Shown here in pieces: positions 1 through 12,090 of a stretch of 12,090 nt of DNA. Origin of the DNA: Lachnospiraceae bacterium (GTDB lineage: Bacteria > Bacillota > Clostridia > Lachnospirales > Lachnospiraceae); assembly GCA_017420605.1 (NCBI GenBank), contig JAFOIS010000315.1:1-12090 (forward strand). Direction: 5' to 3'. Within the stretch, counting starts at the first letter, position 1. Every line of letters starts with the position of its first letter. Position numbers and translations under genes: made by a program. The notes beneath the pieces are model-generated. The model had not been told where the DNA came from. It saw only the letters and a program-made list of their open reading frames with translations, and did no database searches.

Positions 1-1284
1 AAGATGCATGAGGTATATCTGATCCTGGATGCGGAGGATCCGTCCTCTGCGCAGATCACGGCCGTCGTGGACGACGACCCGGTCGCGAGGATCTATTTTG
101 ACGACGTCGACGTCAAAGTTACTTTCGGAGAAGCGGAATCGGACGCGAGGGCGGAAGCGTGGATGCACTCGCCGGTCTATCCGGAGGCCCGTACCGCGTG
201 GGATGATTCGGACATTTTCGTCTTCAATTCCGTTTTCCTGCCGGGATATGGCGAGGACGTGATCCCGTTCCCGCCGTTTGCAAGTTATGCGCTCCTGCTC
301 AACGATCAGGATTTCGTCCTTGAGGATCAGGTGGTGATGCGCGATCCGCATGCGACGGAAGACGACGTAAAGGATTATGCCGCGCTGCTGGAAGAGAACG
401 GATTTGAGAAGACGGAAGAGGACGGAGAGACGTTCTACCGCCGTCTGCTGCGGGAGGAGACGAAGTGCTACACCTCGGTCGCTCTGGCATATAACAACGG
501 CATGGACCTTATTGCGCGGAAGCATTACGATTTCCCGACGTATGACGGTCTTGGCGCGGTCAACGAGAAAATCGCGGAACGCAATTACCGGGCGCTTCCG
601 GAAACGGACGTGCTGACGGATCTCCATGCGACCGACAGGGCCAGTGAATCGACGGAATCCTGGCTGTACTTCTACACGTATGATATGATGCTTTACGTCG
701 ATGCGCACTTTGATGATTACGAAGCGGCGGTCGGATATCTTGATGCGTATGCCGCGGAACTGCAGGAAAAGGACGGCTACACGCCGGTCTATGTCATCGA
801 CGAGGAAGACGGCGAGATCGATTACTACAATTCTCCGGACGGTTCGCAGTCGTTCCGGTATCATTTCAGCGAAGAGGATGAGCAAACGGTGACGCTCCTC
901 TTTAAGGCGGAACAGTTCGTGACGGCACCGGAGGCCGAAGCCCGCCTTGCGGAGGCAGGATTCCCGGCGATCGATCTTGCCGCAGCCGATTCCCTGCGCG
1001 ATCACACGAAGTTCTACAAAACGCAGTACGGTCTTACCTATAAGACGGTACTGACGATCTCGCTGCCGTTCGAGTCCTCGGAGAAAGCGGAGGCGTTCCT
1101 TGACGAGTATGTCGCCGCGCTGGAGGAAGAGGACTTCCTGAGAATGCCGCCCTCGGACATGGGCTCGAACAAGAATAACGCTTATATCGCGGAAGAAGCC
1201 GGCCTGGCCGTAGGTTTTGATTATTTCCCGGCCGATGAAACGAATGAAAAAGCGTGTGTGTACTTCGACTTCAGGGCCGAGTGA
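1..1284 (+). CDS. Acidic repeat protein of unknown function (5'-truncated by window edge)
   Basis: I do not recognise this family. The frame is open at the left edge: codon 1 is AAG and the first ATG is at base 4, with no room to see a ribosome binding site, so the gene probably begins upstream. The visible 426 residues are strongly acidic, with no signal peptide or membrane segment in this part. They contain at least three similar modules of roughly 70-90 residues. Each has a hydrophobic strand, an acidic turn, an amphipathic helix and then strands. The helices fall at about residues 117-133 (YAALLEENGF), 237-259 (LDAYAAELQEKDGY) and 358-378 (LDEYVAALEEEDF). The last module ends VYFDF. This suggests tandem alpha+beta domains, perhaps the soluble or exported part of a longer protein. 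The downstream mscS follows on the same strand after 72 nt without a clear terminator, so co-transcription is possible. Confidence 0.8.
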   Translation, partial: KMHEVYLILDAEDPSSAQITAVVDDDPVARIYFDDVDVKVTFGEAESDARAEAWMHSPVYPEARTAWDDSDIFVFNSVFLPGYGEDVIPFPPFASYALLLNDQDFVLEDQVVMRDPHATEDDVKDYAALLEENGFEKTEEDGETFYRRLLREETKCYTSVALAYNNGMDLIARKHYDFPTYDGLGAVNEKIAERNYRALPETDVLTDLHATDRASESTESWLYFYTYDMMLYVDAHFDDYEAAVGYLDAYAAELQEKDGYTPVYVIDEEDGEIDYYNSPDGSQSFRYHFSEEDEQTVTLLFKAEQFVTAPEAEARLAEAGFPAIDLAAADSLRDHTKFYKTQYGLTYKTVLTISLPFESSEKAEAFLDEYVAALEEEDFLRMPPSDMGSNKNNAYIAEEAGLAVGFDYFPADETNEKACVYFDFRAE

Positions 1285-1343
1285 AAGACCGCCGAAGCTG
1301 CGGAGAAGTGATAGATGCTGAAGAATGCCCGGCAGGGCGTCAC

Positions 1344-1348
1344 GGAGG
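1344..1348 (+). promoter_or_regulatory. Ribosome binding site deciding the mscS start
   Basis: GGAGG lies 8 nt upstream of the ATG at 1357. The alternative in-frame ATG at 1315 has a weaker GGAGAAG 9 nt or so upstream and would add 14 polar residues ahead of an otherwise typical MKKN start. Confidence 0.7.
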
Positions 1349-1356
1349 ATCGGATC

Positions 1357-2286
1357 ATGAAGAAAAACAATGCGAAAACGTATATCGGGATCGTCATCGC
1401 TGCGATCCTGGCGCTGCTGCTGGCCAATCCGGGCTGGCTGCCCCTGCCGGATGACCTCAGGGCGGCGGTTCTGAAGACCGAACAGGAGAACCTTCTTTTC
1501 CAGAACGACGCGCATGCCACGATCGCGCAGCTGATCACCCTGGTGCTGGCCGTTCTGCTGGTCTGGCTCATTTACCAGGTCCTGAAGCTGATCCTGAATG
1601 CCCTCGCGAAGCGGGGCGGCAGGACGCAGACGGTCGTGAATCTGATCACCGGTCTTCTGAAATATGTGGCGGTGATCGCGGCGGTCGTCTGGGGGCTCAG
1701 CATCCTCGGCGTAAACGCGACGGCAGTGCTGGCCGGCGTCGGCATCGTAGGCCTGATACTGGGGTTCGGGGCGCAGAGCCTGATCGAAGATATTATCACC
1801 GGCGCGTTTATCATTTTCGAAAACCAGTACAGCGTCGGGGATATCATCATTCTGGATGATTTCCGCGGTACGGTCCGCAGCATCGGCGTCCGGACGACGG
1901 TGATCGAAGATGCCGGCGGAAACCTGAAGGTCGTGAACAATTCCGATATCCGCAATTTCCAGAACCGTTCCCGGAACAATTCTGTCGCGCTGTGTACGGT
2001 ATCGGTCTCTTACGGCACCGACCTGCGGAAACTGGAGGCGCTCCTTACGGAAAAGCTTCCGGATCTTCTTGCACAGCATCCGGACCTGTATCTGTCCGCG
2101 CCGCGGTATCTGGGTGTGGACGCTTTGGCTGACAGCGGCGTGGACCTCAAGTTCGTGGTCAGTACGACGGAAACAAACGTCTTCTCGGCGCAGCGTATGC
2201 TGGCCAGAGACATCAAACTGCTCTTCGACGATAACGGCGTGGAGATCCCCTTCCCGCAGGTCGTTCTGCATCAGGGAAAAGACTGA
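1357..2286 (+). CDS. mscS: MscS-family small-conductance mechanosensitive channel
   Basis: This is a membrane channel that opens under membrane tension to release solutes during hypo-osmotic shock. The 309-residue protein is close to the usual MscS length (about 286). Predicted membrane helices lie at about 8-24, 55-80 and 94-118. The pore helix follows at about 119-150, a Gly/Ala-rich run (AVLAGVGIVGLILGFGAQ) leading into SLIEDIITG. Next comes the family's beta-domain region, with YSVGD at 158-162 and the GTVRSIGVRTT strand at 171-181. Near the C-terminus is EIPFPQ (296-301), matching the family's IPFPQ signature. I chose the ATG at 1357 over 1315 because of its better ribosome binding site. 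It is the second gene of a plus-strand pair and is followed by a terminator. The family assignment is firm; whether it is the main channel or a paralogue cannot be told. Confidence 0.95.
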   Translation: MKKNNAKTYIGIVIAAILALLLANPGWLPLPDDLRAAVLKTEQENLLFQNDAHATIAQLITLVLAVLLVWLIYQVLKLILNALAKRGGRTQTVVNLITGLLKYVAVIAAVVWGLSILGVNATAVLAGVGIVGLILGFGAQSLIEDIITGAFIIFENQYSVGDIIILDDFRGTVRSIGVRTTVIEDAGGNLKVVNNSDIRNFQNRSRNNSVALCTVSVSYGTDLRKLEALLTEKLPDLLAQHPDLYLSAPRYLGVDALADSGVDLKFVVSTTETNVFSAQRMLARDIKLLFDDNGVEIPFPQVVLHQGKD

Positions 2287-2312
2287 AGCCCCCCCTCCGG
2301 ATCGGGGCAGAG

Positions 2313-2341
2313 AAAAGCCGCTGCGGCCTGCAGCGGTTTTT
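2313..2341. terminator. Bidirectional rho-independent terminator between converging units
   Basis: A perfect 7-bp stem, CCGCTGC (2318-2324) with GCAGCGG (2330-2336), has a 5-nt loop. It is flanked by AAAAG on the left and GTTTTT on the right, so a U-tract follows the hairpin on both strands. It ends mscS, 27 nt after its stop, and also the minus-strand operon whose last gene stops at 2392. A second small GCCCC/GGGGC pairing (2288-2308) lies just before it. Confidence 0.85.
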
Positions 2342-2391
2342 CTATATACGTAAGAACGTTCGCATGACGATCAGATCGGATGTGGATCTTC

Positions 2392-3597
2392 TCAGACGCC
2401 GGACCGGATCATGGCGCCGTCTTCCCAGCGGACCGACCATATATTCTGTGAAAGAAGGGCGGAGATCCCTTCGGTATCCGCGGTGTCCGCAATAAAGTAC
2501 TGCGAAGCGCACAGCGCGAGATCGCCTGCGGTATGCGAATCCGAGATGAGGATAAGCTCCGGCAGGGCAGTCTTTGGCATACCGTCCGCCGGATCGGTGA
2601 AGGCGGATGTTACGCGGCCGTTCCGCCAGGTATAATAGCGGTCCGCATACCCCCGGTCGGTCAGCGGATAACTGTAGATCGCGGCGGAAGCGAACGGCTT
2701 TGCAAAGTGCAGTTCCGTATCTGTATAGAGATGCCCGTCTTTCCGGTAATAGAGAGTCATCGTGTAGTCATTTCCGCTGCTGTCAAGGCACCGCGTAAAG
2801 CCGTCATGACTCGTAAGGAGCCCCTTCGTATACCCGTGCTCCGCAAGGACGCCGGCGATCTGGTCCACGATGAACGCGTTTTTCATCCAGTAGAGGTCCA
2901 GATACGCTGTGATGCCGTATTCCTCTGCAAAGGCTTTGTATTCGTCCGATACATGAAGGCAGGCCTCCCCGTTATCAAAGAGTTCGACCGTAACGTGCGC
3001 CGGATCGTTCGCGAACGCCGCGGCGCTGTGGAAGAATTCCGCGGTCTCTGCGTTCTCAAGCGGATCGAAGGCGGCGGCTTCCGTGTCGTCCGCGCTGAAG
3101 AACAGGTCGTCGAGGACCCGGTAGACGGGTGCAAGGTAAATATGGCGGCTTCCGGCGGAAATACAGCGCGAGAGCGCGTCAAAGAGGACCGGGTCGATCG
3201 CAAGGCGCGTCTCCGGAGAGGAACTGAGGTCGTACAGATTGATCCTGCCGTCGAAATGCATCAGGGGATGGAAGATCTCAAAAGCGTCCTTTGCCGCCTG
3301 CGTATAGAGGATCGTCAGCGCTTTCCGGTCGGCCGTGGAAACGCCCGTAAGGTCATACCGGAAGGTAAGTTCTCCCGCGGCGGTATATCCGGAAGCAGAA
3401 TCGGCAGAGATCTCACTCATACCCTGCGGACCGCGCAGAAGGTGCGTCAGGGCGTAGCCGAAAGAGACCAGCATGACGATAATCAGCAGCACGACGAGAA
3501 CGAGCCTCCGTTTCGGGGCTCGTTCTGATAATTCAATGCGTTCGACCGGCGGCGGTACGTTCTGCGTACGGTCCGGTGCTCTCCGTTCTTTTGCCAT
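2392..3597 (-). CDS. Membrane-anchored ApbE-fold protein, probably catalytically degenerate
   Basis: The 401-residue protein has a basic N-terminus, one membrane helix at about 31-51, and an extracytoplasmic remainder. I read that remainder as a diverged ApbE (FAD:protein FMN transferase) fold. Landmarks in order: a long helical region near 90-112; YLAPVYRV (154-161), where ApbE has FDPTVGPL; AYLDLYWMKN then VDQIAGVLAEHGY (231-256), matching the DLGGIAKGYAVD..AELLKEAG region; TSHDG (262-266) in place of the catalytic-site GGN; FTDPADGMP (333-341) in place of HILDPxTGxP; and AGDLALC (357-363), matching the metal-site motif with D359 kept but the Thr four residues on replaced by Cys. The missing GGN and His argue against normal flavinylation activity. 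It starts 12 nt after the oppF stop with a weak AGGCGG ribosome binding site, so it is the last gene of the opp operon. The fold call is from memory of the family pattern and is moderately confident. Confidence 0.8.
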   Translation of the reverse strand: MAKERRAPDRTQNVPPPVERIELSERAPKRRLVLVVLLIIVMLVSFGYALTHLLRGPQGMSEISADSASGYTAAGELTFRYDLTGVSTADRKALTILYTQAAKDAFEIFHPLMHFDGRINLYDLSSSPETRLAIDPVLFDALSRCISAGSRHIYLAPVYRVLDDLFFSADDTEAAAFDPLENAETAEFFHSAAAFANDPAHVTVELFDNGEACLHVSDEYKAFAEEYGITAYLDLYWMKNAFIVDQIAGVLAEHGYTKGLLTSHDGFTRCLDSSGNDYTMTLYYRKDGHLYTDTELHFAKPFASAAIYSYPLTDRGYADRYYTWRNGRVTSAFTDPADGMPKTALPELILISDSHTAGDLALCASQYFIADTADTEGISALLSQNIWSVRWEDGAMIRSGV

Positions 3598-3609
3598 GTT
3601 CCGCCTGTG

Positions 3610-4929
3610 CTACAGAATCGATATGATGAGCAGGATACCGAAGATGAGGACGATGGCCGCGATGAGTCCGAGACCGATCAGTGCTCCCTTCCGGCACTGC
3701 TTATAGTTCCGGATGTAGTTATGTTTCCGGAAAATGAAAGCGCCAATGAGTCCGAGGATGGGCAGGAAGAAGGACAGCACGGCAAGCCAGACGTTGCCGG
3801 TGTCGTGCAGCGGCGTATCCAGGATATATTCGCCGCTTGTAAGCGATACCTCCTCCGACTTGCGCTGCTTCTCACGTTCGGCTTCCTCTTCTTCGGTGAG
3901 GATGGTGATCGAACGGACGACCTTGCCCGCTTCGCGGATCGCCTTGTATTCCTCGATCTCTTTCTTGTTGCCGTATACATAGTGATCGTGGCCGATGTTC
4001 ACCAGCTCCGGCTTGTCTTCGCTGTAGTCGTGGATCGACGGATCGTAGGTATAGAGCGCTTTGTGCTTCTCGAGCTTCGGATCCGGGATCGGGATCGCGG
4101 AGATAAGAGAGTGCGTATACGGATGCAGCGGGAAGTCGAAGAGCTCCTCTGTCGGCGCGATCTCGACGATATTGCCCTTGTAGATAACGCCGATATGGTC
4201 GGAAATATACCGGACGATCGAAAGGTCGTGCGCGATGAAGAGGTAGGTGACGTCGCGATCCGCCTGGAACTTCTTCAGCAGGTTCAGGACCTGGGCACGG
4301 ATGGAAACGTCCAGCGCGGAGATCGGTTCATCCGCGATGACGAGCTCGGGTTCCATGACCATGGCGCGCGCAAGGCCGATCCTCTGGCGCTGGCCGCCGG
4401 AGAATTCGTGCGGGTACCGGGTCAGGTGCTCGGGCAGAAGGCCGACTTCTTCGATCATGGTCTCGACCTTGCGGACGCGGTCCGCTTCATTTTCGAAGAG
4501 GTTGAAGTTGTAAAGCCCTTCGGAAATGATATAGTCGACCGTCGCGCGTTCGTTCAGGCTCGCCGCGGGATCCTGGAAGACCATCTGGATGTTGCGGATC
4601 ACTTCGCGGTCAAGGCTCTTCGGAATATCGCCGGAGATCCGGACGCCCTTGTAGAGGATCTCGCCGGCGGCGCACGGATTCACGCGGATCACCGCGCGGC
4701 CGACCGTGGTCTTGCCGGAACCGGATTCGCCGACGAGCGAGAAGGTCTCGCCCTTCATGATGTTGAAGCTGGCGTCTTTGACGGCCCTGACGGCGTTGTC
4801 GCCTTTGCCGAAGGTAATGTCTACGTGTTTGACCTCCAGGAGGATCTCCTTCCCGGTCGCAGGATCGATCGGGCCGTGCTCCGGAAGATGGGCTGCCGTA
4901 CTTGCCGCCGCTTTCTTCTCTTTACTCAT
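3610..4929 (-). CDS. oppF: Oligopeptide ABC transporter ATPase OppF/AmiF with C-terminal two-helix membrane extension
   Basis: One of the two ATPases driving peptide import with OppD. The core is complete: Walker [10 protein letters not shown] (67-75), Q-loop Q119 in MVFQDP, signature SGGQ (177-180), Walker B LVIADEP (196-202), switch H234 and the [12 protein letters not shown] motif typical of oligopeptide ATPases (269-280). [19 protein letters not shown] and the rest of the core resemble streptococcal AmiF closely. That family normally ends near residue 330 here. This protein continues for about 110 residues: a Glu/Lys-rich stretch (about 345-360), a membrane helix at about 380-400, a basic loop with [15 protein letters not shown], and a second helix at about 416-438. 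The start ATG overlaps the oppD stop (ATGA), with AGGAGG 7 nt upstream inside oppD. An ATPase carrying its own membrane hairpin is unusual for this class. Confidence 0.95.
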
Positions 4930-6689
4930 AGATCTTCCTCCTCAAGGTGATAAGTCTTCAGAAGCTTTCCGTGGATGTCCCGGATAATGGCCGGTTTTTC
5001 CGTCTTCGGCGCGCGCGGGTCAAGGAGCCACGTTTTCGCGAAGTGCGTTTCGGAGACCTGGAACATCGGCGGTTCTTCGAGTGTGTCGATCTTCAGGCAG
5101 TACGGGTTGCGCGGAGCGAACGCGTCGCCGGTGATCTTGTTGTACAGCGAGGGCGGCGTGCCGGTGATCGAATACAGTTTCGTGTCGCGCTCCGCAAGCT
5201 GCGGGAGCGAGGAGAGCAGCGCCCATGTGTAGGGGTGCTTCGGGTCGTAGAAGACTTCCTCGACCGTGCCGATTTCGATCAGCTGGCCGGCGTAGAGCAC
5301 GCCGACGCGGTCGGCAACGTTCGCGACGACGCCGAGGTCGTGCGTGATGAATACGATCGTGTAGTTCAGTTCACGCTGCAGATCTTTGAGAAGCTTGAGG
5401 ATCTGGGCCTGGATCGTAACGTCCAGGGCGGTCGTCGGCTCGTCGCAGATCAGGATCTTCGGCTGGCAGGAGAGCGCGATCGCGATAACGATACGCTGCC
5501 GCATGCCGCCGGAGTACTGGAACGGATAGTCGTCGTAACGGTTTTCGGCGTTCGGGATACCGACCTTCTTCATCATGATGATCGCGCGTGAACGGGCCTC
5601 CGCCTCGGAGACGTTCTGGTGCTTCATGATAATGGAGCTGATCTGCTTGCCGATCGTCATGATCGGGTTGAGCGACGTCATCGGGTCCTGAAAGACGGTG
5701 GCGATCCGGCTGCCGCGGATCTGGCTCCAGTCCTCGGCGTATTTGATCTTGGCGACGTTGAGGATGCAGCGGCCGTGCAGGGTATCGCCTTCCTCGTCGA
5801 TATAGCGTACGTGGAGCGCCGCGTCTTCAAAGAGCTTCGCGCGTACTTCCGGATCATGGAGATCGGCGCCCATCTTCATGCCGTCGCGGCAGATCGCGAC
5901 AAGTTTTTTGATGGTTTGCAGACGTTTACTGAGCACGTAGCGGCCGACGGTAAGGTAGATCTCCTTCGCAAGCAGCGTGCACAGCGCCTTCAGATCGTCG
6001 TCCGGCGCTTTCTTCGTTTCTTCCGCGTACCGGCTCTTCAGCGCGGCCATCTTGCTGTTCCAGGAATCCTGATAGGCGGTATCGTGCGCAAGCGCGTCCT
6101 TATGCTGTTTGATCAGCGCCTCTTTGTCCGCCTCCGCCTTTTTGACCGCAGTCTCAAGGCCGGCGATCTTTTCGTTGATCTCTTTGATCTTGTCTTTTTC
6201 GTTCTTCGGATCGAACGTCTGACGGAGGTTCATCGCCTCGGTCTTCTGGTAATTCAGCTCATGGATCTCGCCTTCGATCTTCTCCGATTCCTCGTCGGAG
6301 AGGGTGCCGCGGGCTTTCTTCTCGGCTTCGAGTTCCGCCATCTGCTTCCAGGTCTGCGCGCCGTAGGTGAGCGGCGCCGTCGCAAGGAGCTTCTTTTCCG
6401 TGTCGGCAAGAAGACGGCGGCCGACGCTTCCGAGCGTGACGTTCGTTTCGGCCAGCTGGTCGTCGTTGAAAATGACCGAGCCGTTCGCGATGAAGCCGTT
6501 GGAATCGAGCATGCCGGCAAAGGTCTTTGTGAAGACGGATTTGCCGGAGCCGGACTCGCCCACGATCGCGATGGATTCATTTTCGTAGATGTCGAGGGTA
6601 ATCCCGCGGATCGCGGTCAGGATACGGCCGCGGACGCGGAATTTGACTTCCAGATCTTTAACGGATAATAAAACTTTTCTGTCGTCCAT
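4926..6689 (-). CDS. oppD: Oligopeptide ABC transporter ATPase OppD/AmiE with large helical insertion in the nucleotide-binding domain
   Basis: Partner ATPase of OppF. Motifs: Walker A GESGSGKS (44-51), Q-loop Q334 in VFQDPM, signature YSGGM (392-396), Walker B ILICDEP (412-418), switch H450 and [14 protein letters not shown] (485-498). The C-terminal region has [10 protein letters not shown] and [10 protein letters not shown], as in AmiE-type proteins. At 587 residues it is far longer than the usual 330-355. The excess lies between about residues 84 and 318, between Walker A and the EDWSQIRG segment that normally follows the first strands directly. The insert is highly charged and helical, with coiled-coil-like heptads at about 112-225 ([20 protein letters not shown]), then a second helical part ending in a short beta-like stretch. 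All catalytic motifs outside it are intact, so the ATPase should be active. The start has GGAGG 5 nt upstream (6695-6699), and the gene lies 13 nt after oppC. Confidence 0.95.
4937..4942 (-). promoter_or_regulatory. oppF ribosome binding site inside oppD
   Basis: AGGAGG on the minus strand lies 7 nt before the oppF ATG and within the last codons of oppD. With the ATGA stop/start overlap, this indicates translational coupling of the two ATPases. Confidence 0.75.
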
Positions 6690-6702
6690 GCTTTCCTCCC
6701 CC

Positions 6703-7677
6703 TTACATATGTGTTCTCGGGTCGGACGCGTCGCCGAGGTTCTGGCCTACGACGTAGAGCACGACCGTGATGATGGAGGCGATAACGACCGGCGACCAGA
6801 ATTCAAACTGCCAGCCGGGGGTGAGCATGGAGTTTTCCGCCTGGTAAATGAGGCGGCCGAGCGACATGTCGGACATACCCATGCCGATGTAGCTTAAGAA
6901 CACTTCGTAGGAAATGTAGGACGGGATCTCGGTCGCGGCAAGCGTTACAATGACGGACGTCATGAACGGCATGATGTTTCGGACCGCGATCCGTGTGATC
7001 GGCGTCCCGAGGCACCGGGAGGCCAGGTTGTATTCCCGGTCGCGGATGATGATGACCTGCGTCCGGATGAAGTAGGCGATGAACAGCCACCCGGTGACCG
7101 TCAGCGCGAAGACCATGGTCCAGAAGCCTGCCGAGAAGATCAGGACGAGGACGGAGATGAAGAGGATGTACGGCACGTTGCCGATGATGTTGTACACCTC
7201 GGTCATCACGAGGTCGACCTTCTTTGAGAAGCCCCACATCGCGCCGATCAGCGTTCCGAGCGTCAGGTTGATGGCGGCGCAGATGAACGCCATCGTGATC
7301 GAAATACGGGAACCGAACCAGACGGCGTCAAACGTGGACTGGCCTGACGCGCCTGCGCCGAGGATCCAGTGGATGTTCTTTCCGAACAGCTTCATGGCAG
7401 CGCTCGGAAGAAGGTGCTTCGCCGACGCGTTCATCAGGTTGGCGTACGGATTGTAGTCCGTGAGCGCCGGGTAGATGTAGGTGAATGCCAGGATGATGGC
7501 AAACAGCGAGAGGATGATGATGTTGATCTTCTTGCGGAAGAACACACGGAAAACGGACCGCCAGTAGGAGTACCGCGGGGCCGTGATCTTTTCGGATTCC
7601 AGATCGCTGTGGCTGACCGGGGAGAAAAGCTCTTCGTCGGTCAGGACGGGCTGCGTATTGGTTTTCTTGTTTTCCAT
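6703..7677 (-). CDS. oppC: Oligopeptide ABC transporter permease OppC/AmiD
   Basis: Inner-membrane permease subunit that pairs with OppB to form the peptide channel. The protein is 324 residues from the ATG at 7677, a normal length. The N-terminal cytoplasmic tail contains APRYSYWRSVFRVFFRKK, a strong AmiD-like feature, before helix 1 (about 51-72). Further helices lie at about 118-150, 168-205, 240-262 and 293-312. The EAA loop that docks the ATPase is at about 216-240 (EYNLASRCLGTPITRIAVRN). The C-terminus GQNLGDASDPRTHM is typical of the family. A GTG start at 7686, overlapping the oppB stop, is also possible and would add three residues. I prefer the ATG because GAGGTGA (7683-7689), a near-perfect ribosome binding site, lies 5 nt ahead of it. 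Nothing is missing from this subunit. Confidence 0.95.
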   Translation of the reverse strand: MENKKTNTQPVLTDEELFSPVSHSDLESEKITAPRYSYWRSVFRVFFRKKINIIILSLFAIILAFTYIYPALTDYNPYANLMNASAKHLLPSAAMKLFGKNIHWILGAGASGQSTFDAVWFGSRISITMAFICAAINLTLGTLIGAMWGFSKKVDLVMTEVYNIIGNVPYILFISVLVLIFSAGFWTMVFALTVTGWLFIAYFIRTQVIIIRDREYNLASRCLGTPITRIAVRNIMPFMTSVIVTLAATEIPSYISYEVFLSYIGMGMSDMSLGRLIYQAENSMLTPGWQFEFWSPVVIASIITVVLYVVGQNLGDASDPRTHM

Positions 7678-7682
7678 ATCCG

Positions 7683-7689
7683 TCACCTC
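7683..7689 (-). promoter_or_regulatory. oppC ribosome binding site overlapping the oppB stop
   Basis: GAGGTGA on the minus strand contains the oppB TGA stop and lies 5 nt before the ATG at 7677. This favours that start over the GTG at 7686 and implies coupling of oppC translation to oppB termination. Confidence 0.65.
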
Positions 7690-9248
7690 GCCTTGGATGT
7701 AAAGGAGATCCGCGGATCGACCATGCTCATCAGGATATCGCCCAGGATGATGGATACCACGGACAGGCAGGCGTAGAACAGCGTTACGCCTACGATGACG
7801 CCGTTATCGTAGAAGTTGATCGCCTTCGTAAGCAGGTTGCCGGCGCCGGGAACGACGTACACGCGTTCTGTGATGATCGCGCCGACCATCGCGCCGAGGA
7901 TACTGGCCGGAATGCCGTGGACGATCGGGATGATCGAGTTCTTCAGGATGTGATTGGTGAAGATCTCACGCTCGGAAAGACCGCCGGAACGGGCGAATTT
8001 CACGTAATCGGAGTTCATCTGGTCGATCATGTAGCGGCGAAGCCACATCATAAGGTTCGCGATCGACGGAAGCGCGAGCGAAACGATCGGCAGTACATAC
8101 ATCAGCTTCGTCGCGTGCTCCATGTCGAAGGTCGTCGGAAGACCGAGGTTATAGCCGATGGCCTTGAACAGGAAGATGTAAGCAAGGGACGGAACGGCGA
8201 TGATGAAGACGATGTAGACCGTGCCGATCTTGTCCACGAGCTTGTCCTTTTTCTGCGCCATCCAGATCCCGAGCGGAATGCCCAGGAAATACGCCATGAG
8301 CGTGGCGATGATGCCGATCACGAAGGAGTAGCCGATCTTGGAGAGACCGCTCTTGACTGTGATGACGCCGGTGTAGTCATCGGAGAAGCGCGCGATGTTG
8401 ACGGCGCTGGCTTCCCGGGAACCCTGGATATAAACGGCGCTGTGCAGATCGTCTGCGCTGATCTCGGTAAGACTTGTCGGATATGTGATCTCAGAGCGTA
8501 CATAGGAGCCCTGGGAAGCGTTCATAGTCTGAAAAACGTCCACGCCCTGGTTTACACTGTAACTCTTGCCCAGGTTGATCGTAACAAGATTCTGATGGAC
8601 GAACGGGAATTTCGAATTGCAGTAGAGCAGATATTTATGCCGGGTCCCGTTGCCGACAATGGCGGGCGAGAATTTTCCGCCGTATACAGGGTCGTGCAGC
8701 GTAAAGGAAAGACCGCGCTTTCCGACGTCGCCCTGCGCATAGTGGATATTGTCCACTTCGATCAGGCCCGCAAAATACTTCAGCATGCGGCCCAGAAGCG
8801 GTTTGTTTTTAAAGGCGAAGAGCTGCTGCGCACCGCCGGGCGCGACTTTCCTGCCGGACATGACGGCTGCGAGCCGTTTGACCGTGTAGCCCTTCGATTC
8901 ATAGTACTGCGTGAATTTCTGTACGTACTCCTTAACGGCTTTCGGATCCTCGGAGGACTTCTTCTCGATCGCGGCGACTTCGGTCCGCTTCGCGTCGGAG
9001 ATCTCCCCTGAGGAGACGAGTGCCTGGAGATACTCGGTGTAAGGAACGTAATCCAGGTAACCGAATTCCTTCCAGCGCCGGTACTGATAGACGGTTTTGG
9101 CGTTGTTGCCCAGATTGGTATAAGTGGGATCCTGCGCGAAGATGAGCTGCTTATCCATCAGAGAGTAGATCAGTACCATAACGATACCGACAACGATGAC
9201 GATGGAGACGAGACCGTGCAGGATTCGCCGGAGCAGATATTTTCCCAT
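7683..9248 (-). CDS. oppB: Oligopeptide ABC transporter permease OppB/AmiC with large extracytoplasmic domain
   Basis: Second permease subunit. It is 521 residues long against about 310 for enterobacterial OppB, but close to streptococcal AmiC (about 500), which it resembles in detail. After helix 1 (about 8-31) comes LIFAQDPTYTNLG. A large extracytoplasmic region of about 265 residues follows, including GTRHKYLLYCNSKFPFVHQN (201-220), before helix 2 (about 303-330). The remaining helices lie at about 342-364, 382-402, 446-469 and 485-510. The EAA loop is at about 415-443 (YVKFARSGGLSEREIFTNHI), and the C-terminus has GDILMSMVDPRI. The loop probably helps receive peptide from OppA; this is inference. 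The ATG at 9248 has a GGAAGG ribosome binding site 5 nt upstream. The gene follows oppA after 106 nt containing a stem-loop, and its stop overlaps the oppC start region. Confidence 0.95.
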   Translation of the reverse strand: MGKYLLRRILHGLVSIVIVVGIVMVLIYSLMDKQLIFAQDPTYTNLGNNAKTVYQYRRWKEFGYLDYVPYTEYLQALVSSGEISDAKRTEVAAIEKKSSEDPKAVKEYVQKFTQYYESKGYTVKRLAAVMSGRKVAPGGAQQLFAFKNKPLLGRMLKYFAGLIEVDNIHYAQGDVGKRGLSFTLHDPVYGGKFSPAIVGNGTRHKYLLYCNSKFPFVHQNLVTINLGKSYSVNQGVDVFQTMNASQGSYVRSEITYPTSLTEISADDLHSAVYIQGSREASAVNIARFSDDYTGVITVKSGLSKIGYSFVIGIIATLMAYFLGIPLGIWMAQKKDKLVDKIGTVYIVFIIAVPSLAYIFLFKAIGYNLGLPTTFDMEHATKLMYVLPIVSLALPSIANLMMWLRRYMIDQMNSDYVKFARSGGLSEREIFTNHILKNSIIPIVHGIPASILGAMVGAIITERVYVVPGAGNLLTKAINFYDNGVIVGVTLFYACLSVVSIILGDILMSMVDPRISFTSKAR

Positions 9249-9279
9249 GACTGCCTTCCGCTTGTTTAGAAATGAAAGA

Positions 9280-9307
9280 GGGGAACGGCGGGAATCCGCC
9301 GTTCCCC
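9280..9307 (-). terminator. Intercistronic GC-rich stem-loop between oppA and oppB (possible attenuator or 3'-end stabiliser)
   Basis: A perfect 12-bp inverted repeat, GGGGAACGGCGG (9280-9291) with CCGCCGTTCCCC (9296-9307), has a 4-nt loop. In the operon direction it is followed by TCTTTCATTTC, an interrupted U-tract. It therefore looks like a leaky terminator or RNA-stabilising hairpin that would give more receptor (oppA) message than permease message, as known for other binding-protein operons. It lies 47 nt past the oppA stop. Confidence 0.7.
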
Positions 9308-9354
9308 ATCCCTTAGAAGCATGTTGCCTTTTGCCGCGTTAAGCGGCCGGGGAA

Positions 9355-11535
9355 TTAATAGATGCCGAGGGCCTTGACCATATAGCCGGCATAGTCGGCC
9401 TGCATGGTGTCAAGGTAGGTCTGCGGATCGCCGTAGTCCGGGCCCCAGCCGGAGAGGTCGCAGATATCGAAGTTGGCTTCGTAACCTGTGCCGTAGTAAT
9501 AGCCGGCATAGTACCAGTCATCGGAGGTCGGGCAGTCGACCTTGTTGACAATGATGAGGTTGCCCGTCGCGGACTCGACGCTCTGCTTGAAGGCTTCGCC
9601 GCGGTTCGCGTAAACTTCGGAACCGGAGAAGACCGGGAGGTCGACGTAGATCGGGTTCTTTTCGTTGATCTTGACACCGGCTTTGCCGAGTTCTTCGATC
9701 GCGATCTTCAGTTCGGCCTGGGCAGCTTCCGGATTGTACCAGCCGTCAAAGCCGGAGGAAGCGCCGATGCCGCCTTCCATCGTCGGATCCCAGACCTTCG
9801 CGGTGATGCCGTCGGCATCGAGCTGCGCCTGGACGATCTCGCCGTAGAAGGTGCCTGCCGGGAAGGTCGTCGCCGTGCCGTTGATATCGATCGTGGTATC
9901 TTCGGTCAGGAAGACGAAGTTGCCGGGCGTGTAGGAGTTGATCAGCGAGTTGTACTTCAGTTCTTCGCCGACACCCTGCGCGTTGTAGGCGCCGCGGTCA
10001 AGGCTCATAAGGAGCGCGCGGCGGAAGTGCACGTTCTGCATCGCGGCAAGCGTACGCTCAGCCTGGGCGACCGTCTTCGTGGAAACAGCGGCGGTATTGT
10101 CGTTGAAGTTCGAGAAAGCGTAACGGTTGACGTTGAAGAAGCCCATGAAGGAAGTGGCGTTCGTCGCGGAAACATATGCGTGACCTTCGAAGAGACCGTC
10201 CTTCTTGGCCTGCTCAAGCGAGGAGCCCGTAAGACCGCAGCCGGCGATCTTCTCAGCCTTCGCGTCGTTGTAGTTCTTCAGCGCGTCGGTGCCGTCGTTG
10301 TAGTACCAGGTCATGGACTTGATGTTGGTGTTTTCAGCATTCCAGTAGTTCTCGGCAGCCTTGAAAACGATCGTGTTTTCAGCGGTCGCGTTGGTGACGA
10401 CGAACGGGCCGTTGTAAGCGATGTTGTCCGGAGTCTTGCCGTAGGTGTAATCGGAAGCTTCGTCATCGTATTCTTCGCCGAACTTACCGCCCTGGGAGAC
10501 GTAGTATTCGCGGCTCATCGGAGCGAAAACGCTGTAGCCGAGCATCGTCATGAAGAACGGGCACGGAGCAGCCAGCGTGTATTCCAGCGTGTGGTCGTCG
10601 ATCGCCTTGACGCCGACCGTCGAGAAATCGGTGGTCTCACCCGCCATATAGGCATCCGCACCGGCGATGTTGCAGCCGTCCGGGCCGACAAGGTATTCAA
10701 GACCGCCCGCAGCGTCAAGCATGTGCTGCATGCCCGCGACCCAGTCATCAGCCTTGAGGTCAGCGACCTTACGGCCCTGGCTGTCGGTCCAGATGACGCC
10801 TTCACGGATCTTGAAGGTGTACTTGAGGCCGTCGGCGGAAACTTCCACGGAAGTGGCAAGCGCCGGCTGCTGGACGTTTTCCATATCGTATTCATACAGG
10901 CCGTCGTAGGTCTGGATGATCTTTTCGGAGTCGGCTTCCATGGAGGTCGCCAGGACGTCCCAGGTGTTCGGATCAGAGGTGTAGCCCATGTTGTACTCAT
11001 CGTTCAGTTCATAGCCCTTGGAAGCAAGGTAATCCTTTACCCACTGCTCATAGGTGCCGGTGCCGATGAGTTCGCCCCATTTGGCGCGCATCTCGTTGAC
11101 CTGGTCAAGCGGCAGGAAGTCGCCCTTGACGATGATCGCGGAGTGATAACGCTCATTGTCGGAGCCCCACAGCGTGGAGTTGATCGTACGCGGCGCGACG
11201 CGGGAGATCGCGTAGTTGCCGCCGCGGCTCTGCAGCGGGATCATGATAGCGGAGCCGAGCATCTTGCCTTCCGCGACAGCCATCAGGGCATAACGCTTGC
11301 TGAGCTCGTCCTGCTCTTTGTACTGCTTCGCCTCTTCGTAGATGCTGGCGAATTCGCCCAGGACCTGCTCGTAGACCTTCGCGGACTCATCGTCGTAGGT
11401 CTCCGGGTTGTAGCGGGCCGCTTCCGGATCGTTGGCCAGGGTGGTGTCCTTCTTGCTCTTGCCGCAGGCGGCCAGAGAGAACGCCATCACGAGCGCGAGA
11501 ACGACACACAGAAGCCTGGTGAGTTTCTTGTTCAT
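9355..11535 (-). CDS. oppA: Oligopeptide-binding lipoprotein OppA/AmiA, apparently circularly permuted
   Basis: Extracellular peptide receptor (solute-binding family 5) delivering ligand to OppBC. From the ATG at 11535 (GGGAGG about 11 nt upstream) the protein has 726 residues. It has a basic, hydrophobic signal peptide and lipobox LAAC, with lipid attachment at C24. The body matches the family: MGYTSDPNTWDVL (183-195) as its usual first strand, DGLYEYD (211-217), DGLKYTFKIREGVIW (235-249), FSTVGVKAIDDHTLEYTL (304-321), YNGPFVV (374-380), FRRALLMSLDR (504-514) and GWGPDYGDPQTYLD (696-709). Order is odd: the chain stops only 17 residues after the last motif, where homologues go on for 100-130. 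A block with exactly that missing character (about 41-160: LSKRYALMAVAEGKMLGSAIMIP, then ISRVAPRTIN and VNEMRAKWGE) sits between the lipobox and the usual N-terminus. The mature protein has five further Cys (288, 325, 433, 668, 692). Confidence 0.95.
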   Translation of the reverse strand: MNKKLTRLLCVVLALVMAFSLAACGKSKKDTTLANDPEAARYNPETYDDESAKVYEQVLGEFASIYEEAKQYKEQDELSKRYALMAVAEGKMLGSAIMIPLQSRGGNYAISRVAPRTINSTLWGSDNERYHSAIIVKGDFLPLDQVNEMRAKWGELIGTGTYEQWVKDYLASKGYELNDEYNMGYTSDPNTWDVLATSMEADSEKIIQTYDGLYEYDMENVQQPALATSVEVSADGLKYTFKIREGVIWTDSQGRKVADLKADDWVAGMQHMLDAAGGLEYLVGPDGCNIAGADAYMAGETTDFSTVGVKAIDDHTLEYTLAAPCPFFMTMLGYSVFAPMSREYYVSQGGKFGEEYDDEASDYTYGKTPDNIAYNGPFVVTNATAENTIVFKAAENYWNAENTNIKSMTWYYNDGTDALKNYNDAKAEKIAGCGLTGSSLEQAKKDGLFEGHAYVSATNATSFMGFFNVNRYAFSNFNDNTAAVSTKTVAQAERTLAAMQNVHFRRALLMSLDRGAYNAQGVGEELKYNSLINSYTPGNFVFLTEDTTIDINGTATTFPAGTFYGEIVQAQLDADGITAKVWDPTMEGGIGASSGFDGWYNPEAAQAELKIAIEELGKAGVKINEKNPIYVDLPVFSGSEVYANRGEAFKQSVESATGNLIIVNKVDCPTSDDWYYAGYYYGTGYEANFDICDLSGWGPDYGDPQTYLDTMQADYAGYMVKALGIY

Positions 11536-11735
11536 CGTTTCTTTTTCCTCCCTTATAAGAAAAAATAAAATAGTTTCTCCCTCAGCTGCCCTTTGCATCT
11601 GCGGGACAGTTCACAAAAGAACAGTGGCTGCCGCGTGATTTCACGCTTTAATCCGTTGAAAGGCCGCGGCGGCTGTTCCTCTTCAACACAAAACCCAAAC
11701 TGTCATGATGACTCAGGCAGTCTGGAAAGTGCGTT
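11536..11735 (-). promoter_or_regulatory. Long oppA leader with hairpins and a 7-codon upstream ORF
   Basis: The distance from the predicted transcription start (about 11735) to the oppA ATG is about 200 nt, long for a plain leader. It holds a 7-codon ORF (11706 to 11683, MTVWVLC), whose stop sits in the 5' arm of a hairpin (11656-11686, TTGAAGAGG with CCTTTCAA plus an inner GCCG/CGGC). A second perfect inverted repeat, GCGTGA/TCACGC, lies at 11633-11646. An A/U-rich run precedes the ribosome binding site (11547-11552). No known riboswitch class or T-box signature was recognised. Confidence 0.45.
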
Positions 11736-11741
11736 CTATTT

Positions 11742-11769
11742 ATTATAGCACGAGTTTTTCGAATGACAA
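11742..11769 (-). promoter_or_regulatory. Near-consensus sigma-A promoter of the opp operon
   Basis: On the minus strand, TTGTCA (11769-11764, one mismatch to TTGACA) is followed after 16 nt by TATAAT (11747-11742). TGC directly before the -10 makes an extended -10 element. It points into the oppA leader, with transcription expected to start near 11735. It should be a strong promoter. Confidence 0.85.
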
Positions 11770-11791
11770 TCTTTTTTCGTTTTCCGAATGA
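11755..11791. repeat. Imperfect 12-nt direct repeat over the opp -35 region
   Basis: TTTTTCGAATGA (11755-11766) and TTTTCCGAATGA (11780-11791) differ at one base and are spaced 25 nt start to start. The first copy overlaps the opp -35 box and the second lies just upstream of it. They could be a regulator's binding sites, but the stretch is AT-rich and chance similarity is possible. Confidence 0.4.
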
Positions 11792-11899
11792 ATTTTTCAT
11801 AGTACGGAGCGGAATGCCGATTCTGCGGCGTTTTTTGAACGGAATAATGTATTTTTCACAACGGCGGACCATTTCGTAGAAGATTTATCATTGTGATTC

Positions 11900-11908
11900 T
11901 GTTATACT
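11900..11908 (+). promoter_or_regulatory. Extended -10 promoter for the dipeptidase gene
   Basis: TGTTATACT is an extended -10 element (TGn followed by TATACT) with no recognisable -35 box at 16-18 nt spacing. It lies about 48 nt ahead of the ATG at 11957 and is divergent from the opp promoter. Between the two promoters (about 11770-11899) I see only AT-rich sequence with no gene. Confidence 0.55.
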
Positions 11909-11956
11909 ATACAAGATATCGAAAAAGCTGTTCGGGAATACGGTACGGGAAATAAA

Positions 11957-12090
11957 ATGACAGGCGGCGCGGATAACAGACTGACGATGGATCCTTCGGG
12001 ATTTGTGCTCCTCTCCGAGCATATCCCGCATATCATACAGGAGATCCGGTATTATTCCACCTATAACTTCATCGGCGAGCGGATCGACGG
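11957..12090 (+). CDS. D-alanyl-D-alanine dipeptidase, VanX/DdpX family (3'-truncated by window edge)
   Basis: Only the first 44 codons are present, followed by two bases of the next. The translation begins MTGGADNRLTMDPSGF and continues to SEHIPHIIQEIRYYSTYNF then IGERIDG at the edge. The pattern of a short hydrophobic lead, an (I/V)xx(L/I/V)RYxTxxNFxGxxVDGY block and the spacing from the N-terminus match the start of VanX/DdpX-type M15 metallopeptidases, zinc enzymes that hydrolyse D-Ala-D-Ala. The zinc ligands and catalytic residues lie beyond the window and cannot be checked. The ATG at 11957 has a weak GGGA 7 nt upstream; the ATG at 11987 has none. No signal peptide is seen, so a cytoplasmic enzyme is likely. 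Its position next to a peptide importer suggests use of imported peptidoglycan dipeptide, as in ddp clusters, but the partial sequence leaves this as inference. Confidence 0.75.
   Translation, partial: MTGGADNRLTMDPSGFVLLSEHIPHIIQEIRYYSTYNFIGERID

Follow-up and report, generated by a model that had tools for sequence, protein, structure and literature searches.

The oppA locus

The window analysed here is a stretch of 12,090 nucleotides (contig JAFOIS010000315.1, positions 1 to 12,090, assembly GCA_017420605.1, Lachnospiraceae bacterium) that carries on its minus strand oppA and, behind it, oppB, oppC, oppD and oppF, i.e. the receptor, two permeases and two ATPases of an Opp/Ami-type importer operon (Table 1). 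Judged from its sequence, oppA almost certainly encodes a circularly permuted substrate receptor of this oligopeptide importer, in which the C-terminal block of AmiA-type receptors lies ahead of the body of the protein. The open reading frame (ORF) with its coordinates, the unbroken reading, the lipobox (LAAC, Cys24), the GWGPDYGDPQTYLD motif and the stop 17 residues past this motif are all as given in an earlier note, made from the letters alone, that had proposed the permutation. PF00496 is the sole credible Pfam match in OppA (residues 223–713, 133.6 bits versus the curated cut-off of 32.4), which places it in extracellular solute-binding protein family 5; the scan gave nothing credible at residues 1–222. 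The same genome carries two more PF00496 genes, only 28% and 25% identical to oppA.

Table 1 Features of the opp operon in the window.
Feature	Position	Strand	Basis
oppA, permuted family-5 peptide-binding lipoprotein, 726 amino acids (aa), class P1	9355..11535	-	PDB, Pfam and profile matches
oppA: signal peptide with lipobox LAAC, residues 1–24 (Cys24, predicted lipidation site)	11464..11535	-	sequence reading
oppA: relocated block, residues 51–153, homologous to C-terminal AmiA 516–618	11077..11385	-	phmmer, block profile, hhalign
oppA: junction, residues 154–179, old C-terminus to old N-terminus	10999..11076	-	between the two phmmer stretches
oppA: body, residues 180–713, homologous to AmiA 15–499, normal order	9397..10998	-	phmmer, Pfam
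oppA: GWGPDYGDPQTYLD motif, residues 696–709	9409..9450	-	sequence reading
oppA: new C-terminus, residues 714–726	9358..9396	-	sequence reading
oppB, permease, 521 aa, long as in AmiC	7683..9248	-	PF00528
oppC, permease, 327 aa	6703..7686	-	Pfam
oppD, ATPase, 587 aa, insertion of ~200 aa between parts of the ATP-binding cassette (ABC) domain	4926..6689	-	Pfam, length survey
oppF, ATPase, 439 aa, two hydrophobic (transmembrane-like) C-terminal segments	3610..4929	-	Pfam, segment survey

OppA matches AmiA-type receptors out of order

Comparison with PDB chains (phmmer) aligned OppA 180–713 with AmiA chain positions 15–499 and OppA 51–153 with positions 516–618. A second, out-of-order stretch was likewise found in AliB (61–153 with 517–606), AliC (59–122 with 520–581) and AliD (64–155 with 519–609). 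These block stretches are weak in single-sequence searches (independent E values 0.036–0.48), and a profile of 23 N-terminal blocks was therefore searched against 177,635 PDB sequences. It was significant only for AmiA, AliB, AliC and AliD, in each case at the C-terminal end (E values 9.2e-9, 1.5e-7, 3.3e-7 and 6.6e-7 for the four receptors; fifth match 0.67). In this search the junction also weakly resembled histidine-binding proteins, at their C-terminal tail (E 0.67), which was put down to chance. In hhalign, the block profile matched 14 canonical AmiA-type relatives with E 6.7e-12 (template columns 581–676 of 678) and, more weakly, shorter canonical receptors near their end (E 4e-4, columns 519–557 of 589), with E 0.093 and 0.079, respectively, for reversed-block controls. 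A comparison of this kind, between hidden Markov models (HMMs) of the N-terminal block and the AmiA C-terminus, had been proposed in the earlier note, and the lack of a match for residues 41–160, which would have told against a permutation, was not observed. The block HMM also matched the C-terminus of 13 canonical AmiA-like ORFs (E 1e-5 to 6e-11) and gave a single match, ahead of the body, in 184/184 permuted P1 entries (121 proteins plus 63 locus ORFs, some genes being represented twice), at E 8.5e-28 or better.

Placed on a profile of 622 positions in canonical order, the window gene (L003 in the profile readings) reads 512–619 and then 33–511, with neither loss nor overlap at the seam: two swapped parts in one open frame, as in natural permutants, and nothing duplicated or lost, as had been claimed for this gene. 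Its nearest solved relatives are AmiA/Ali receptors for both the body and the C-terminal block, while the canonical Ami/Ali order (Domain I, II, I, III, I, final helix) is absent. OppA is hence read as a permutant derived from the AmiA/Ali group and not as a regular member of it. The relocated block had been placed at about residues 41–160; the relocation holds, and the best-supported limits are 51–153.

Some observations count against this reading. Besides the weak single-sequence matches, the block HMM is weak in one canonical AmiA-like receptor (L123, 2e-4), finds no credible match in another (L115) and little in shorter canonical receptors (best E 0.004, L089), and the start of the block on the canonical profile is blurred across P1 members (493–545; 512 in the window gene). 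A canonical family-5 receptor that had lost its C-terminal part and gained an unrelated N-terminal domain would also give a single PF00496 stretch (223–713) with nothing credible in residues 1–222, and only weak single-sequence matches of the block. This alternative is refuted at the sequence level and is very improbable, given that the block profile is significant, among PDB sequences, for AmiA/Ali C-termini only, that the hhalign match stands beside a clean reversed control and that the seam is exact (511/512 of the profile). Sequence, profile and PDB-chain comparisons thus support circular permutation of OppA.

Spread, conservation and selection of class P1

The query and the best 120 of its 5198 relatives (E 1e-20 or better; P0001–P0121) have the permuted order in 121/121 cases, so that the survey of homologues proposed earlier found this order throughout the set covered. 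All of the best 120 matches to L082, a canonical receptor, have canonical order (120/120). Exactly 22 residues separate the W..D..DP motif from the end of 118 of the 121 P1 proteins, the other three lacking the exact pattern. P1 is present in Aristaeella hokkaidonensis (P0039, a protein cluster with contigs of up to 3.39 Mb), the isolate Butyrivibrio sp. YAB3001, Lachnospiraceae bacterium A4, Acutalibacter sp. 1XD8-36 and metagenome-assembled genomes from ruminant and other guts. A P1-class match was found in at least 2/398 genomes of the phylum, at least 5/391 of the class and at least 14/299 of the family; each count includes the genome of the window and may be low, since only two or three candidates were scored per genome, and in one of the 14 family genomes (G876) the match is split over two contigs. 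Canonical AmiA-type receptors also occur in the genus of the window (L082, L083). The window assembly is fragmented (332 contigs), as an assembly or frameshift artefact would require, but the same order recurs in all 121 proteins from many independent assemblies, including the 3.39-Mb contig and isolates, and the gene is under purifying selection, which refutes an artefact and leaves it a negligible probability.

Against its relative L004 (62% identity in the block, 75% in the body), the ratio of nonsynonymous to synonymous substitution rates is ~0.31 for the block and ~0.24 for the body; the permuted receptor is under purifying selection. In Ami receptors, the Trp and Asp of the motif bind the N-terminus of the peptide, according to PMC11192437. 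Among the 98 aligned of the 121 P1 proteins, the corresponding Trp697 never varies and Asp700 is conserved in at least 90%; OppA carries this recognition motif.

By a pattern test, 70 of the 121 P1 receptors have a lipobox, 50 a signal sequence without the lipobox Cys and one neither; in the same test, a signal sequence without the Cys was seen in only 10/120 canonical AmiA-type relatives. In L106 (ORF 625–3645, minus strand, 1006 aa) immunoglobulin-like domains (Pfam I-set) follow the new C-terminus of a P1 receptor. L035, L040, L042 and L043 have an open frame of ~300–400 aa ahead of the relocated block, with no Pfam match in L035 and L042, the two scanned.

Transporter genes of P1 operons

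In every permuted P1 locus that extends 5 kb or more past the receptor gene (37/37), oppB, oppC, oppD and oppF come next. When each open frame is measured from its first Met, OppB has 507–649 aa and OppD 580–622 aa in 37/37 of these operons, and OppF has a hydrophobic C-terminal segment in 35/37. Among canonical AmiA-type operons read over their full length, the nearest (L222, not pneumococcal, from a genome that also holds L111) encodes an OppB of 500 aa, an OppD frame of 360 aa and an OppF of 331 aa. Long OppB therefore seems to be older than the permutation, and the OppD insertion and OppF tail may have come along with it. Canonical receptors from the genus of the window (L215, L216) have no oppD or oppF on the surrounding stretch examined. 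Two rows of the OppB tree labelled canonical are a permuted gene cut by the contig end (L039) and an OppB belonging to a second receptor at the locus edge (L010_A_ca).

Sister permutations in shorter family-5 receptors

A census in the canonical frame revealed further permuted classes among shorter OppA-type receptors. The best 120 matches of L077 (its own protein included) comprise 42 permuted and 78 scored canonical. P2 is cut at the loop equivalent to the P1 cut (profile ~486; 11 proteins in this set and ten more loci: L066, L077, L093, L095, L096, L098–L101 and L202), P3 near profile 313 (21 proteins, plus L084 and the second gene in L220) and P4 near profile 396–405 (nine proteins, plus L211, L212 and L213). 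A P3-like protein, P0282, carries the C-terminal block twice.

PDB chains of OppA/DppE/PrgZ-type receptors (8are, 8ay0, 6npo) served as references for these classes and confirm, at the level of sequence, each of the three permutations (Table 2). After rotation, identity to a canonical protein is 78% for P0301 (P3; with L075, 557 residues), 69% for P0348 (P4; with L203) and 60% for P0304 (P2; with P0361); P1 proteins reach only ~29–37% identity to their best canonical match. The high identity of the sister permutants to canonical proteins suggests that the fold tolerates permutation.

Table 2 Out-of-order matches of P2, P3 and P4 receptors to PDB chains (receptor residues with chain positions, in chain order).
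Receptor	Class	Chain	Matches
L096	P2	DppE	125–579 with 18–444; 57–119 with 451–513
P0301	P3	DppE, 8ay0	387–591 with 75–284; 52–219 with 292–444; 252–315 with 448–512
L220, second gene	P3	6npo	312–579 with 38–297; 63–301 with 306–545
P0305	P4	OppA, 8are	214–538 with 17–340; 25–111 with 359–449; 148–209 with 459–520
L213	P4	6npo	290–644 with 37–382; 129–277 with 392–543

Six loci of shorter permuted receptors extend 5 kb past the receptor gene; oppBCDF come next in three (L212, L213, L220) and not in the other three; in L218 and L219, transporter genes lie upstream of the receptor. In one genome (G037), L220 holds two P3-type genes on the plus strand; behind the gene at 8448 come oppBCDF, and behind that at 15195 another oppB. 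The P4-type gene of L214 (G399; 6806–8491, minus strand), broken by one in-frame TGA, precedes oppB-, oppC-, oppD- and oppF-like genes. In the genus of the window, L217 (G011; ORF 2175–5408, minus strand; L093 holds the same gene) has a frame of 1078 aa encoding a protein kinase domain (Pfam, residues 65–287) and, from about residue 549, a P2-type permuted receptor, with a hydrophobic segment between the two (by eye). The predicted product looks like a peptide-sensing receptor kinase.

Number of permutation events

The receptor trees were built quickly. For the first, 571 rotated sequences were reduced to 84, by a cut-off of 58% identity inside each label and a ceiling of 14 for P1, with a few added by hand. 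Four ORFs covering <72% of the profile, P0245 (879 aa, scored canonical in the census), P0282 and loci L039, L043, L045, L046, L152, L153 and L214 were excluded before the 571 were assembled. P1 forms one clade (Shimodaira-Hasegawa-like approximate likelihood-ratio test, SH-aLRT, 100), adjoining canonical AmiA-like L082 and L111 (SH-aLRT 91), and the window gene is a member of this clade, which is found in several clostridial groups. Canonical and permuted labels need nine changes on the tree, seven of them forced by starred branches, and all five labels need ten; in a second tree, without five doubtful long rows (L157_1276, L188_634, L104, L002, L070), the counts are nine (eight forced) and ten. 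These counts do not separate gains from reversals.

Approximately unbiased (AU) tests, also run without the five rows, reject a single clade for all permuted receptors (p 0.00056), for P2, P3 and P4 together (1.8e-7), for P3 (5.8e-7) and for P4 (2e-37), and weakly reject one P2 clade (p 0.026); since the groups were defined once the first tree was in view, these p-values are optimistic. Trees and AU tests demand several separate permutation events, with a lower estimate of six: two each for P3 and P4, one for P1 and at least one for P2.

A proposed origin by tandem duplication

P0245, with one member on one 3.5-kb contig, consists of a full canonical receptor plus a second N-terminal half ending at the P3 cut (profile 13–564, then 42–314). 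Its two N-terminal halves share 73% identity, and the second shares 84% with its counterpart in P0301. P0245 looks like a candidate duplication intermediate for a P3 permutation; the same content would result had a P3 gene been fused to a canonical half at a later stage. The two block copies of P0282 are 94% identical, pointing to recent internal copying of the C-terminal block.

For P1, two further observations weigh on the other side: the block HMM found no doubled block, thus no duplication intermediate, in this clade (0/184 entries), and P1 proteins are so far from canonical ones (29–37% identity) that the block may have been gained from another receptor gene. By such domain shuffling, OppA would have lost its own C-terminal block and a homologous one from a second receptor gene would have been fused behind the signal peptide. 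At the identities found, a common parent of block and body is not demonstrable, and in P0282 the block has been copied alone. Yet the seam of the window gene is free of loss and overlap, the younger P3 and P4 permutants are highly identical to one canonical protein over 557–561 residues, as for permutation of a single gene, and P0245 has the content expected from tandem duplication; shuffling is accordingly considered unlikely. In-frame tandem duplication followed by trimming is the origin that we infer for the window gene, by analogy, since none of the P1 entries has a doubled block.

Placement of the cuts and a proposed arrangement of the receptor

PMC11192437 gives Domain I of AliD, part of Lobe 1 and present at either end of the chain, as residues 29–63, 191–296 and 583–617, Domain II as 64–190 and Domain III (Lobe 2) as 297–582, with a final helix (622–652) that packs on Lobe 1. 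By phmmer and the block profile, the P1 cut falls between AliD chain positions 499 and ~506–519, which an estimated offset of ~25 between chain position and residue number places in Domain III. P3 matches AliD up to chain position 283, just inside Domain III by the same offset, and on the profile the P4 cut falls between those of P3 and P2. By these published limits, all permutation cuts appear to lie in Lobe 2, and the lipid tether has probably moved there.

In the arrangement that we propose, Lobe 1 holds both of the old termini, N and C; the short junction would link them, with the region of the final helix leading into it, and new termini would be opened in Lobe 2, after the GWGPDYxDP motif. 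The three-dimensional fold, the clamshell peptide site and docking to OppB and OppC would be kept, such that OppA of the window may still bind peptides and serve transport, with a lipid anchor that would hold the receptor by Lobe 2.

Relation to known systems

The closest known receptors, AmiA, AliB, AliC and AliD of pneumococci (PDB 8a42, 8qlj, 8qlh and 8qlc), resemble OppA of the window in the body, the C-terminal block and the GWGPDY motif, but ~105 of their C-terminal residues sit at the N-terminus in OppA. The Ami system, whose receptors PMC11192437 assigns to cluster C, is also similar in its two permeases, two ATPases and long OppB (AmiC, 498 residues, versus 521 aa here), and differs in the ~200-aa insertion of OppD and the hydrophobic tail of OppF, a contrast that rests here on the non-pneumococcal L222. 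OppA/DppE/PrgZ-type receptors (8are, 8ay0, 6npo, 4faj) are from the same Pfam family and have canonical order and chains of 521–564 residues.

A permuted receptor of another fold class has been described. TpMglB-2 (Tp0684) of Treponema, a glucose receptor of Cluster B termed ‘Type Ic / Cluster Bc’, is, like OppA, a natural permutant and a lipidated ligand-binding protein of an ABC transporter; PMC4990184 places its relatives mostly in treponemes and Gram-positive bacteria, reports only 13% identity between permuted parts and raises topology as a possible adaptation to anchoring. It differs in being a Type I sugar receptor of another family, with its first three strands moved to the end. OppA is not of this type, since it falls in PF00496 and matches the cluster C Ami/Ali receptors. 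The earlier note knew of no description of permuted receptors in family 5, and none was found in the full-text literature searched (most subscription papers lie outside its coverage). By look-up of terms, one paper on methods of permutation search (PMC12667903) does not mention solute-binding proteins, ABC transporters or OppA, another (PMC11757225) does not mention binding proteins, ABC transporters or oligopeptides, and the only paper found with both ‘circular permut’ and SBP_bac_5 (PMC2588589) has the two terms in unrelated places.

Pfam reports one ordinary PF00496 stretch apiece in 8/8 P1 proteins scanned, so the permutation does not show, and family-5 receptors of this kind are easily mis-modelled. 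PF27766, assigned to some relatives in the protein database, gave no match in the four of these that were scanned with Pfam.

Natural circular permutation is, to our knowledge, mostly known from old, diverged pairs. In family 5, by contrast, a permuted and a canonical receptor can be as much as 78% identical over 557 residues, and the same kind of cut recurs across the tree; repeated and partly recent permutation across the family is more surprising than the window protein itself. On balance, and with somewhat more confidence than doubt, we regard the family-5 receptors of clostridia and other Bacillota as a hot spot of circular permutation, with at least six events and three kinds of cut, all in Lobe 2, some of them recent (60–78% identity), arising by tandem duplication and trimming. 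The clade of the window would then be an old and fixed case, in which the tether has moved to Lobe 2 and the transporter has been rebuilt alongside, with an inserted OppD and a tailed OppF.

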